NCBI RefSeq assembly: GCF_019029495.1
Contig: NZ_JAERQM010000006.1
Coordinates: forward strand, 201,115-265,114
Reading direction: 5' to 3'
Source of the DNA: Falsiroseomonas oleicola
GTDB taxonomy: Bacteria; Pseudomonadota; Alphaproteobacteria; Acetobacterales; Acetobacteraceae
DNA length: 64,000 nt
Positions 52,781 to 60,164 of this stretch are shown here, piece by piece. Positions within the stretch are counted from its first letter, which is position 1. Each line of letters begins with the position of its first letter. The notes beneath the pieces were generated by a model. The model was not told where the DNA came from. It worked only from the letters and a program-made list of their open reading frames with translations, and searched no databases. Both the position numbers and the translations under genes were made by a program.

Positions 52781-53265
52781 CGCCGCTCCGGCTGAGATGC
52801 GGGGAATTTTCAAGCAACTGTCGTGCCACTTCGACCGGCATGAGGACCCGACCGAAAATACGTCGCCTCCGGCGGGGGCTGACCACAGCCTGGGCATGGT
52901 CATCCCCGCAACTGGCGCGGGACGCAGCAGATTTGTCCGGACGACCACATGCGACCGTCAGATTGACGATTGCGAACTGCGCCAGCTTCGTCATCATCCC
53001 AATCTCGCGAGAGGGATTGAAGCCGCATGCCCGACGCCCTGCCGCCCGCCGCCGAGACCCATTCGTGGATGTCTCCGCCGCGCGCCGGCTCGCGCGTGAT
53101 GGATAAATGACAGGACATACATCATCGGCCGCCCACGGCTTCACGGCACACCCGCGGCTTGCCATCGCCGGCATGCCGGGGCGCGATGCTGGTGACGTGT
53201 CTGCACAACAGCCAACGCGTCGCGCCATCTCGCGCGGCGACCAGGAACAGGGAACGAGGGACATC
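52781..53265. other. Long non-coding divergent region before the TRAP operon
   Basis: These 485 bases separate the VOC gene from the TRAP binding-protein gene. The region holds the one-mismatch copy of the GntR-type operator at 52933. Short open frames in it lack ribosome-binding sites and family resemblance. I cannot identify a convincing promoter; the operator is 321 bases from the TRAP start, so a long leader is possible. Confidence 0.5.
52933..52944. promoter_or_regulatory. GntR-type operator, variant copy
   Basis: TTGTCCGGACGA differs from the perfect palindrome TTGTCCGGACAA by one base. It shares the preceding AT with the copies at 57839 and 60153, giving ATTTGTCCGGAC in all three. It lies in the divergent region in front of the TRAP operon. 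Confidence 0.6.
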
Positions 53266-54942: not shown

Positions 54943-56312
54943 TCGCCGTTGTCTTCATCGTCGTCCTGATCGGCGTCTTCCTTGTTCTGTCGATGACGGG
55001 CGTCAGCCAGGGGCCGGAGATTCCCTGGACCGGCGTGCTGCTGCTGCTGGGTGTCTTCATCACCTTCTTCGCGGCCGGCATCTATGTCGGCGCGGCGCTC
55101 GGCGTGCTGGGCCTGCTGGCCGGCTTCGCCTTCTCCGACCGTCCCTTCTGGACCTTCCTCGGCCAGACCATCTGGGGACCCTCCTCCTCCTTCGTCCTGG
55201 TCGCCGTACCGCTGTTCCTGCTGATGGGGGAGATCCTGCTGCGGGCCGGGCTGTCGGAACGGCTGTATCGCTCGCTGAACCTGTGGCTGGACCGCATGCC
55301 GGGCGGGCTGCTGCACACCAATATCGTCGCCTCCGGCGTCTTCTCCGCCATCTCCGGCTCCTCCGTTGCCACCGCGGCGACGATGGGCTCCGTCGCCATG
55401 CCCTTCTTCCAGGGCAAGGGGTATGATCCGAAGATGGTGATGGGGTCGTTGGCGGCGGGTGGCGCGCTGGGCAACCTGATTCCGCCGGGTATCACCTTCA
55501 TCATCTATGCGCTGATCACCGAAACCTCGGTCGGCGCGCTGTATCTGGCGGCGGTGGGGCCCAGCATCCTGGTGATGCTGGCCTTCATCGGCGTCATCCT
55601 GCTGAACCGCAAAAGCGCGCCACCGCCGGGGGAGCGCATTCCGCTCGACGTCAAACTGCGCGGGCTGGTGGACCTGCTGCCGACCATCATCCTCATCCTG
55701 ATCGTGCTGGGCACCATCTATGCCGGGCTCGCCACGCCCACGGAATCGGCGGCCCTCGGCGTGGTGGCGGCCATCGTCATCGCCATCGTGGAGCGCCGCT
55801 TCTCCTTCCGCATGCTGCATGCCTGCGCCGAGGCGACGGCGCGCAACACGGCGATGATCGGGCTGATCCTGCTCGGCGCCTATGTGCTGAACTACATCAT
55901 CACCCTGCTCGGCGTGCCACAGATGATGTCGGCGCTCGTCTCCGGCCTGCCGCTGCCGGCCTGGGTCATCATGGCGCTGATCATCGGCTTCTACCTGGCG
56001 CTCGGCACCTTCATGGAGGGCTTCTCCATGATCATCACCACCATCCCGGTGATCTTTCCCGTGGTGGTGGCGCTGGGCTACGACCCGATCTGGTTCGGCG
56101 TCGTCGTCACCATGCTGGTGGAGATCGCGCTCATCAGCCCGCCGGATGGCACGGTGTTGTATGTGCTTCAGGGGCTGCGGAAGGATGGGCGGGGCATCGG
56201 CGATGTCTTCGTCGGCGTGCTGCCCTTCGTCGGAGTCTATATCCTGGCCATCGCTTTGCTGATGGTCATGCCGGGCATCGCGCTCTGGCTGCCCGGCGCG
56301 GTCGGGCCATGA
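54939..56312 (+). CDS. TRAP transporter large permease (DctM type)
   Basis: The 457-residue ion-coupled permease carries VPLFLLMGEILLRAG, SGVFSAISGSSVATAATMGSVA, LGNLIPPGITFIIYALI and ALISPPDGTVLYV. With the two genes before it, it forms a complete TRAP importer, presumably for the carboxylic acid broken down by the CoA-pathway enzymes downstream. Confidence 0.93.
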   Translation: MIAVVFIVVLIGVFLVLSMTGVSQGPEIPWTGVLLLLGVFITFFAAGIYVGAALGVLGLLAGFAFSDRPFWTFLGQTIWGPSSSFVLVAVPLFLLMGEILLRAGLSERLYRSLNLWLDRMPGGLLHTNIVASGVFSAISGSSVATAATMGSVAMPFFQGKGYDPKMVMGSLAAGGALGNLIPPGITFIIYALITETSVGALYLAAVGPSILVMLAFIGVILLNRKSAPPPGERIPLDVKLRGLVDLLPTIILILIVLGTIYAGLATPTESAALGVVAAIVIAIVERRFSFRMLHACAEATARNTAMIGLILLGAYVLNYIITLLGVPQMMSALVSGLPLPAWVIMALIIGFYLALGTFMEGFSMIITTIPVIFPVVVALGYDPIWFGVVVTMLVEIALISPPDGTVLYVLQGLRKDGRGIGDVFVGVLPFVGVYILAIALLMVMPGIALWLPGAVGP

Positions 56313-56992
56313 GGCTCAGCTTCACCCGCCACAGCATGGCCGGCAGCGACCGCATATCGCTCACCCCCGACGCCCTGGTCATCGCCGGCTGGGCGGCGCG
56401 GGATGAGGCCGCGGTGCGGCACCATATCGAGGAGCTGGCGGCGATCGGCGTGCCGCCGCCCTCCTCCGTCCCGGTCTACTACCGCGCCGCGGCGGCCAAT
56501 CTGACTCAGGCCGAGGTGCTGGAGGTGCTGGGGCCGGATTCCTCCGGCGAGGTGGAACCGGTGCTGCTCTCCCTCGCCGACGGGCTCTGGGTCGGGCTTG
56601 GCTCCGACCATACGGACCGAAAGGCGGAGGCCATCGGCATCGCGCTGTCGAAGCAGATGTGCGGCAAGCCGGTGGGCCGCGATCTCTGGCGGCTGGAGGA
56701 GGTGGAGCCGCATTGGGATTCCCTGATCCTGCGCGCCACCGCGACCATCGATGGCGAGGCCGTGCTGTACCAGGAGGGCAGCCTGGCCGCGCTGCGCCAT
56801 CCGCGCGACCTGCTGGCGCGGCGCCCCGGCGGCCCCGGCCTGCCGCCCGGCACCCTGATGTTCTGCGGCACGCTGGGCGCCATTGGCGGCATCCGGCCCT
56901 CCAGCCATTTCGCCATGGAACTGCACGACCCGGTGCTGGGCCGCAGCCTGCGCCACGCCTACCGGGTGGCGGAACTTCCTGTCATCGCCTGA
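56309..56992 (+). CDS. DUF2848 family protein
   Basis: The 227-residue protein matches the DUF2848 family in its conserved pieces: ALVIAGWAARDEAAVRHHIEEL, PSSVPVYYR, DSSGEVEPVLLS, GLGSDHTDRKAEAIGIA and the central PHWDSLILR. The late GTLMFCGTLGAIGG recalls fumarylacetoacetate-hydrolase-type proteins, so a hydrolase or decarboxylase role is possible. The function is not known. It overlaps the TRAP permease gene by four bases and is the last gene before the regulator. Confidence 0.82.
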   Translation: MRLSFTRHSMAGSDRISLTPDALVIAGWAARDEAAVRHHIEELAAIGVPPPSSVPVYYRAAAANLTQAEVLEVLGPDSSGEVEPVLLSLADGLWVGLGSDHTDRKAEAIGIALSKQMCGKPVGRDLWRLEEVEPHWDSLILRATATIDGEAVLYQEGSLAALRHPRDLLARRPGGPGLPPGTLMFCGTLGAIGGIRPSSHFAMELHDPVLGRSLRHAYRVAELPVIA

Positions 56993-57004
56993 TCCCCTGC
57001 CCGG

Positions 57005-57016
57005 TTGTCCGGACAA
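57005..57016. promoter_or_regulatory. GntR-type operator in front of its own regulator gene
   Basis: TTGTCCGGACAA is a perfect 12-bp palindrome 12 bases after the DUF2848 stop and upstream of the GntR gene, suggesting autoregulation. The left half could double as a weak -35 element (TTGTCC). Confidence 0.72.
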
Positions 57017-57054
57017 GGCGGAAGGTCTAGCCTTCCGCCACAGGGCGGAAGGAG
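57017..57054 (+). promoter_or_regulatory. Three-unit leader able to form two exclusive hairpins over a ribosome-binding site
   Basis: GGCGGAAGG (57017-57025), CCTTCCGCC (57031-57039) and GGCGGAAGG (57044-57052) are perfect copies and complements. The middle unit can pair with the first (loop TCTAG) or with the third (loop ACAG). The third contains the Shine-Dalgarno sequence of the upstream ORF at 57061. One fold would open that site and the other would hide it, a switch-like layout. Confidence 0.6.
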
Positions 57055-57060
57055 TGCATC

Positions 57061-57090
57061 ATGCGAACGGGCCAGGAGGCACGGCTCTGA
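57061..57090 (+). CDS. Nine-codon upstream ORF before the GntR gene
   Basis: An ATG with GGAAGGAG six bases upstream starts a reading frame that encodes MRTGQEARL and stops at a TGA that overlaps the CTG start of the GntR gene (CTGA). It looks like a leader peptide that couples translation to the regulator gene. A one-base sequencing error joining the two frames is the main alternative. Confidence 0.5.
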   Translation: MRTGQEARL

Positions 57091-57806
57091 GCCGCCCCCT
57101 CTACGCGCAGATCGAGCAGCAGCTTCGCGAGGCGATCGCCGAAGGCCAGTACCCGGTCGGTGCACTGCTGCCGACCGAGGCGGAGCTTTGCGACAGCCTT
57201 CGCGTCTCCCGCCACACGATCCGGGAGGCGCTGCGCCGCCTGGTGGAGGCCGGGCTGGTGGAACGCCGCCAGGGCGCCGGCACCATGGTGGTGGCGCGGG
57301 AAGCGCCGGGCGGCACGGTGCAGTCGCTGCGCAGCATCGAATCGCTCTTCCAATATGCCGCCGATACCCGGCTGGAAATCCGCGACCGCCGCATGGCGGC
57401 GCTGGGCGCGGAGGATGCGGCGCTGATCCCCGCCGAGGCGGGCGAGACCTGGCTGCATCTTCAGGGCCTGCGCATTGGCCAGGATGGCGGCGCCATCGCG
57501 ACGGCGGAGGTCTTCATCCATCCGCGCTTCGCCGCCATCGCCAATGCCCTGCCGGAACGCGGCGCCATCTACGCCATGATCGAGAGCCGCTTCGGGGTGG
57601 AGGTGGCGGAGGTGGTGCAGGAAATCAGCGCCGGCCCCCTGCCCAGCCGCATCGCCACCGCGCTGGGCCGCAAGAGGCGGGAGGTGGGGATGCGCTTCGT
57701 CCGCCGCTACCTCGGCACCGATGGCGCGACGCTGCTGCTGTCGCGAAGCTGGCATCCGGCAGAACGCTTCACCTATGCGATGCGGCTGCGGCGCGGCGAA
57801 GGTTGA
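57087..57806 (+). CDS. GntR family regulator, HutC/UTRA subfamily (probable CTG start)
   Basis: The winged-helix domain spans about residues 4-66 (PLYAQIEQQLREAIAEGQYP, then EAELCDSLRVSRHTIREALR and the wing ERRQGAGTMV); the rest is a UTRA ligand-binding domain. With the CTG at 57087, AGGAGG lies seven bases upstream and the protein begins at the usual point for the family (239 residues). The next in-frame candidate, GTG at 57054, abuts its purine tract and would add a His-rich tail of unlikely sequence. The protein is the obvious ligand-responsive repressor for the TTGTCCGGACAA sites. Confidence 0.85.
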   Translation: MSRPLYAQIEQQLREAIAEGQYPVGALLPTEAELCDSLRVSRHTIREALRRLVEAGLVERRQGAGTMVVAREAPGGTVQSLRSIESLFQYAADTRLEIRDRRMAALGAEDAALIPAEAGETWLHLQGLRIGQDGGAIATAEVFIHPRFAAIANALPERGAIYAMIESRFGVEVAEVVQEISAGPLPSRIATALGRKRREVGMRFVRRYLGTDGATLLLSRSWHPAERFTYAMRLRRGEG

Positions 57807-57838: not shown

Positions 57839-57850
57839 TTGTCCGGACAA
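57839..57850. promoter_or_regulatory. GntR-type operator before the deacetylase-like gene
   Basis: A second perfect TTGTCCGGACAA, 14 bases before the ATG at 57865 and directly after a candidate -10 element. It sits in the 58-base gap after the GntR gene. Confidence 0.75.
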
Positions 57851-60128: not shown

Positions 60129-60154
60129 CGACAGGCGGCATCGCCCCCTAATTT
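60125..60154 (+). promoter_or_regulatory. Internal promoter of the acyl-CoA dehydrogenase operon
   Basis: TTGACG (60125-60130) overlaps the MmgE/PrpD stop codon, and TAATTT (60149-60154) follows 18 bases later. This is the best sigma-70-type promoter seen in the window. The operator overlaps the end of the -10 element. Confidence 0.6.
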
Positions 60155-60164
60155 GTCCGGACAA
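60153..60164. promoter_or_regulatory. GntR-type operator before the acyl-CoA dehydrogenase gene
   Basis: A third perfect TTGTCCGGACAA, overlapping the -10 region and 22 bases before the start codon. Confidence 0.75.

Follow-up and report, generated by a model that had tools for sequence, protein, structure and literature searches.

Organization of the Locus

The window analyzed here, the whole 64-kb stretch of DNA, is contained in the 5.6-Mb genome of Falsiroseomonas oleicola and carries a gntR gene preceded by a short, densely packed leader (Table 1). The gntR product has an N-terminal GntR domain, beginning at residue 5 when numbered from the CTG at 57087, and a C-terminal UTRA domain (Pfam), which is the domain order of the HutC type. 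In a comparison of the protein with NCBIfam, none of the best 25 of the 28 matched NCBIfam models reached its own cut-off.

Table 1. Features of the gntR leader and its surroundings, as positions in the window.
Feature	Position	Strand	Remarks
TRAP transporter genes, then DUF2848 gene	56309-56992 (DUF2848)	+	Upstream of the leader
Perfect palindrome TTGTCCGGACAA	57005..57016	.	Probable operator of GntR (UTRA type); left half doubles as -35 TTGTCC
Unit 1, GGCGGAAGG	57017..57025	+	Promoter spacer in the preferred reading; window only
Probable -10, TAGCCT	57028..57033	+	Separated from TTGTCC by 17 nt; RNA predicted to begin near 57040
Unit 2, CCTTCCGCC	57031..57039	+	Overlaps the inferred -10 and following bases; 5′ arm of hairpin 2, only in read-through RNA
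Unit 3, GGCGGAAGG	57044..57052	+	3′ arm of hairpin 2; holds the first four bases of AAGGAG
uORF, MRTGQEARL	57061..57090	+	ATG 57061 to TGA 57090, nine codons; probable relic of an arylmalonate-decarboxylase/EutA-like cistron
AGGAGG	57074..57079	+	Putative ribosome-binding site for the CTG start, 7-nt spacer; duplex energy -10.3
gntR	57087..57806	+	239 codons from CTG; GntR and UTRA domains; CTG overlaps the uORF TGA
Second perfect operator copy	57839..57850	.	Directly after TAGGAT; precedes the PuuE/polysaccharide-deacetylase-like gene
Third perfect operator copy	60153..60164	.	Overlaps TAATTT downstream of TTGACG; precedes the acyl-CoA dehydrogenase gene
PuuE/polysaccharide-deacetylase-like gene, MmgE/PrpD, acyl-CoA dehydrogenase and CoA-transferase genes		+	Downstream of gntR

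A Recurrent Palindrome and a Conserved Predicted Promoter

Directly 5′ of unit 1 lies the 12-bp palindrome TTGTCCGGACAA, which the first-pass annotation had missed together with the conserved promoter spacing described below. Perfect copies are found at 57005, 57839 and 60153 and a copy with one mismatch at 52933; sites with at most two mismatches number five in the window, against 0.88 expected. Half of the six perfect sites of the whole genome fall in this window. Based on this recurrence, TTGTCCGGACAA is probably the operator bound by GntR, the palindromes recurring through the locus are likely to define a local regulon, and the sites at 57839 and 60153 both look like repressor positions. 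The three remaining perfect sites of the genome are at C1:1014921, C26:120793 and C27:275173. A search of open-licence PMC papers for the operator sequence returned a single match, an unrelated fly paper.

The arrangement of the promoter was compared in 11 operator-aligned leaders: the window, L037–L041, L043, G152, G204, L042 and G095. The comparison rests on this alignment, since in a separate seven-row alignment six rows had been extracted by fixed coordinates, five starting inside or after the operator. The spacing TTGTCC-17-TAGCCT is identical in 11/11 leaders, TTGTCCGGACAA is exact in ten (G095 has one mismatch) and TAGCCT in nine (L042 and G095 have one mismatch each). Agreement averages 10.9 of 11 over the operator columns and reaches 10–11 of 11 over CTAGCCT; it averages 6.6 over the 10-nt spacer and 6.0 over the 40 nt upstream, where no column reaches 10. 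A twelfth leader, that of G087, was checked separately and has TATACA at the same spacing, after an operator with one mismatch. Among 397 genomes of the family, a sample that holds neither G203 nor G205, the string operator-N10-CTAGCC occurs exactly in seven (G000, G152, G195, G200, G204, G209 and G210). No promoter was found at 56850–57200 by a generic consensus scan, which needs 9 of 12 consensus letters and of which TTGTCC/TAGCCT falls short, and no intrinsic terminator was found in the same interval. Because the promoter spacing is conserved, transcription would be expected to start near 57040, 3′ of units 1 and 2. Units 1 and 2 would then be promoter DNA, and only unit 3 would be present in the RNA.

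Three 9-Base Units and a Proposed RNA Switch

The leader had first been singled out for three perfect 9-base units, and these are confirmed to the base. Unit 2 can pair with either neighbor, with loops of 5 and 4 bases, so that two mutually exclusive hairpins are possible, as had been noted: hairpin 1 (units 1 and 2) and hairpin 2 (units 2 and 3). The triple occurs once in the 64-kb window and never when the window is dinucleotide-shuffled (0/20) or when 57005–57090 is shuffled (0/20,000). Single 9-bp inverted repeats are about as frequent as in shuffled sequence (10 in the window, 3–12 in 20 shuffles).

The first-pass annotation interpreted the units as a translational control device, in which all three are carried on one RNA and the exclusive hairpins switch translation of the uORF and hence of GntR. 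The triple is not explained by chance from composition, and hairpin 1 is part of the best fold of the 91-nt RNA 57005–57095, but that fold is barely better than those of shuffled sequences (z -1.5; 20/200 as good). Moreover, GGCGGAAGG is present in 0/11 relatives’ leaders, so the exact units are not conserved, a result that had been named in advance as counting against the device. Hairpin 1, with 58.6% of cells paired, is found in the window alone; hairpin 2 keeps the majority of its pairs (87.5% of cells). Compensatory changes, which had been named as a check, were sought in both hairpins: covariation was seen in neither, and hairpin 2 has no two-sided changes. In L038, CCUCGCC can pair with GGCGGGG, which appears compensatory yet is not counted by the alignment. 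The device also depended on an RNA that begins upstream of unit 1, and the conserved promoter predicts a start downstream of it and of unit 2 as well. Given the unconserved units, the missing covariation and the predicted RNA start, the switch as first described is not supported, and we consider it very unlikely.

Positions 57013–57025 (unit 1 and flank) and 57040–57052 (unit 3 and flank) match at 12 of 13 bases, a likeness private to the window for which a quasi-palindrome or template-switch event in the recent past might account.

The Nine-Codon ORF and the Probable CTG Start of gntR

Other elements described in the first-pass annotation are exact: a nine-codon ORF, a TGA (57088–57090) overlapping an in-frame CTG (57087–57089), and AGGAGG 7 nt before that CTG. 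The ATG of the ORF is preceded at 6 nt by AAGGAG (57049–57054). Taking the CTG as the start, stop and start form an NTGA overlap. The 26-nt distance from ATG to CTG, the overlap of TGA and CTG, and GGAGG before the CTG are repeated in F. tokyonensis and F. selenitidurans (L037 and L038), so that the nine-codon form is found in 3/7 species with the window type of leader. The recurrence of the CTGA layout speaks against the sequencing error that had been raised as an objection to the CTG start. A one-base assembly error, or a frameshift mutation in an ordinary ATG-started gntR, draws on the fact that an ATG lies in frame with gntR in three relatives, but the same phase is kept in two other species whose DNA between ATG and CTG differs, and 11 gntR matches within the genus have no internal stops (at the search threshold of 1e-60, 4 of the 15 genus genomes gave no match); such an error is highly improbable.

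The Shine–Dalgarno (SD) sequences before the candidate starts of gntR were compared. Duplex energies, which were computed with standard anti-SD letters rather than letters read from this genome, are -10.3 before the CTG of the window and -9.5 and -11.1 in the other two nine-codon species, and lie between -2.7 and -6.1 before the gntR ATG or TTG of five relatives that carry the full-length cistron or the 28-codon remnant described below. The SD is thus strong before CTG in 3/3 and weak in 5/5 of these relatives; the value before the GTG of gntR in F. stagni is -9.4. Of 4,000 15-nt stretches drawn at random from the window, 3.75% reach -9.5.

An alternative is that gntR starts at the in-frame GTG at 57054 or another upstream codon and that the overlap with the uORF is accidental. 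This GTG has an SD energy of -6.4, and in F. tokyonensis an ATG likewise lies 7 nt before the uORF ATG, but AAGGAG runs into the GTG and leaves no spacer, F. selenitidurans has no start codon at that position, and GGAGG precedes the CTG in 3/3. We regard an upstream start as unlikely. F. tokyonensis has a rival in-frame ATG (SD -7.4) that precedes the domain by 63 nt, and F. selenitidurans a rival in-frame GTG (SD -3.1), and therefore the claim for CTG is firmest for the window, where alone it is the best start candidate without a close rival.

The uORF peptides (MRTGQEARL, MQSARRPWH and MLTGQGRRR) are poorly conserved. They share no run of control codons, and an attenuator peptide was rejected on this basis. 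Programmed frameshifting was also rejected: the stop/start overlap of the window resembles the RF2 frameshift motif, but the gntR frame could be reached only by a -1 step, and no slippery run is seen in the codons before the stop (CTC, CAC and CGC).

A Full-Length Cistron and Its Probable Remnants in Relatives

Behind the same promoter, G152 carries a gene for a 249-aa arylmalonate-decarboxylase-like protein (Pfam Amdase, 4.4e-15; the NCBIfam EutA and AMDase models stay below their cut-offs) and then gntR. Four relatives, G152, G202/L042 (F. oryziterrae), G095 and G087, have a full-length cistron at this place, the copy of G087 having been identified by eye; the G152 cistron is 90% identical to that of G202 and 92% identical to that of G095. 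Its stop is located 5, 1, 6 and 3 nt, respectively, before the start of gntR, taken as ATG except for TTG in L042. Copies of at least 90% identity are found in 3/15 genus genomes, counting the query genome G152, and in none of the window’s group of seven. All 15 genus genomes match the cistron at 1e-20 or better, mostly through more distant copies elsewhere.

An intermediate form is found in G204 (L036), which has between promoter and gntR a 28-codon ORF, MTDSLGWHRAFDVIAPSAQGFGALLERL, that consists of the start and the end of the cistron protein and whose stop is followed 8 nt later by the ATG of gntR. This ORF appears to be an internal deletion of the arylmalonate-decarboxylase-like gene that still lies beside gntR. 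G204 groups with G152 (support 100/99), away from the branch of the window; six of the ten inner branches of the relatives’ tree are open.

The window and the other six members of its group have no arylmalonate-decarboxylase-like gene between promoter and gntR. In its place, the window and two species, F. tokyonensis and F. selenitidurans, have the nine-codon ORF, ending in NNC-TGA as the full-length genes do. Against a relic stand the poor conservation of the uORF peptides and the limitation of this form to three of the seven species of the group: the leader ATG and gntR share a frame in F. algicola, R. ponticola and a pond MAG, and in F. stagni (L040) an ATG-started 19-codon ORF overlaps an in-frame gntR GTG by 8 nt, perhaps through a separate frameshift. 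The in-frame leader ATG of L039, L041 and L043 adds about 18 residues N-terminal to the GntR domain.

Relatives thus have both the complete gene at this position and, in G204, an intermediate, as a relic would lead one to expect. The region of the uORF stop shows some resemblance to the five gene ends. Ranked empirically among 2,789 TGA sites, the mean similarity score gives P 0.0004 for the window and otherwise 0.0025 and 0.020, and the best match gives P 0.002 for the window and otherwise 0.022 and 0.022, in tests that are not independent of each other. At the 5′ end, ATGACGGGCA of L041 was compared with ATGACGGACA of G152 by eye only, and GGCTCTGAGCCGCC is common to the window and G204. For the 30-nt ORF, the case for a relic origin, which we take as probable, is built on position and short matches, and G087, on a long branch, together with the remnant in G204 suggests that the enzyme gene was lost rather than gained.

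Proposed Coupling of a Probable Relic Cistron to an Autoregulated Repressor

What can be read directly from the DNA is the arrangement of the leader, how it recurs in other species, and the existence of full-length and 28-codon versions; we infer loss rather than gain of the enzyme gene, operator binding, the RNA start site, coupling and initiation at CTG. In our judgment, the leader probably consists of an autoregulated promoter and, behind it, a relic cistron that still feeds ribosomes to a CTG-started repressor. GntR would bind TTGTCCGGACAA, where the -35 of the gntR promoter is located, and the RNA would start inside the 4-base loop that separates units 2 and 3. Ribosomes recruited by AAGGAG would read the nine codons as far as TGA and, after termination there, would begin again at the overlapping CTG, aided by AGGAGG. 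The short uORF would be what remains of the arylmalonate-decarboxylase/EutA-like gene that relatives keep between promoter and gntR. The body of the enzyme would have been lost, and the start site and the stop/start junction would have been retained because translation of gntR depended on them.

Translational coupling by termination-reinitiation at NTGA overlaps is known, and short uORFs whose only role could be the delivery of ribosomes are mentioned in the review literature (excerpts of PMC12548453 and PMC6728339). The locus shares with these systems the commonest stop/start spacing (-4 nt) and an SD inside the upstream ORF, at least as the excerpts present them, but it differs in its CTG start and in that its uORF is apparently the remains of a real operon gene. 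As far as DNA comparison can tell, it appears to be a real variant of translational coupling. Start codons rarely change in this direction: the accessible part of one survey gives 2 switches to CUG among 61,358 ancestral AUG starts and reports stronger SDs with GUG and UUG starts, its results on compensation concerning those codons (PMC5622118). The present case is alike in joining a weak start codon to a stronger SD and different in that the codon is CTG at a coupled junction. Autoregulators of the HutC/GntR type with UTRA domains resemble it in domain order and in having a palindromic site at their own and neighboring promoters. Open-licence PMC papers yielded no GntR family member with a uORF and translational coupling or with a leader ORF, and none of the matches listed from them describes the relic of an operon gene retained as an ORF for coupling.

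The full-length, 28-codon, nine-codon and fused forms, all present in living relatives, suggest how a gene of an operon could turn into a regulatory uORF. If this is true, the origin of some bacterial uORFs and the persistence of a rare CTG start would be explained. The annotation of start sites in such genes may easily be wrong.

Hairpin 2 and Read-Through RNA

Hairpin 2 may have a role of its own: in RNA reading through from the upstream TRAP and DUF2848 genes it would hide the ribosome-binding site, and RNA from the gntR promoter, which has no 5′ arm, would be translated, so that gntR is insulated from its neighbors. We hold this as a tentative possibility. The upstream genes lie on the same strand, the DNA of the 5′ arm is overlapped by the -10, and the SD is all but closed in read-through RNA (unpaired at most 0.01) in 4/7 leaders of the group (window, L039, L040 and L043) and open (0.70–0.96) from the predicted start in 7/7. 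However, the SD is partly closed in L037, L038 and L041 (unpaired 0.29, 0.49 and 0.44), it is closed in 0/4 relatives of the other group (G152, G204, L042 and G095), covariation is absent, and read-through itself is hypothetical. As a speculative added layer, insulation is compatible with the relic cistron.

A comparable principle is known for phage T4 gene e, where, according to the portion of the source available, the ribosome-binding site is hidden in long transcripts and the 5′ part of the structure is missing from short ones (PMC3014915); the same is proposed here. Closure of the SD by hairpin 2 fits this principle without proving it; here the gene encodes a bacterial repressor, the case is known from sequence alone and conservation is partial. 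An operon in which one of two mRNAs allows both genes to be translated has also been described (PMC8896665, in part).

A fuller history, which we consider doubtful, would have the first gene of the operon lost at least twice independently, in the window’s group and in G204, leaving a minimal ORF that persists for ribosome delivery alone. The start of gntR would have drifted to CTG under coupling and a newly strengthened SD, and in the window’s group a hairpin with its 5′ arm embedded in the promoter would silence read-through copies, which would leave transcripts of the autoregulated promoter as the only source of repressor.

Folding of the stretch between the -10 and the SD was assessed by holding both fixed and comparing the middle with random fillings. 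P values are 0.000 for the window, 0.170 for L037, 0.028 for L038, 0.043 for L039, 0.006 for L040, 0.567 for L041 and 0.066 for L043, and in the other group 0.044 for G152, 0.171 for G204, 0.752 for L042 and 0.427 for G095. When the RNA starts 12 nt past the beginning of the -10, the SD is mostly open (0.55–0.96) in all 11 leaders.
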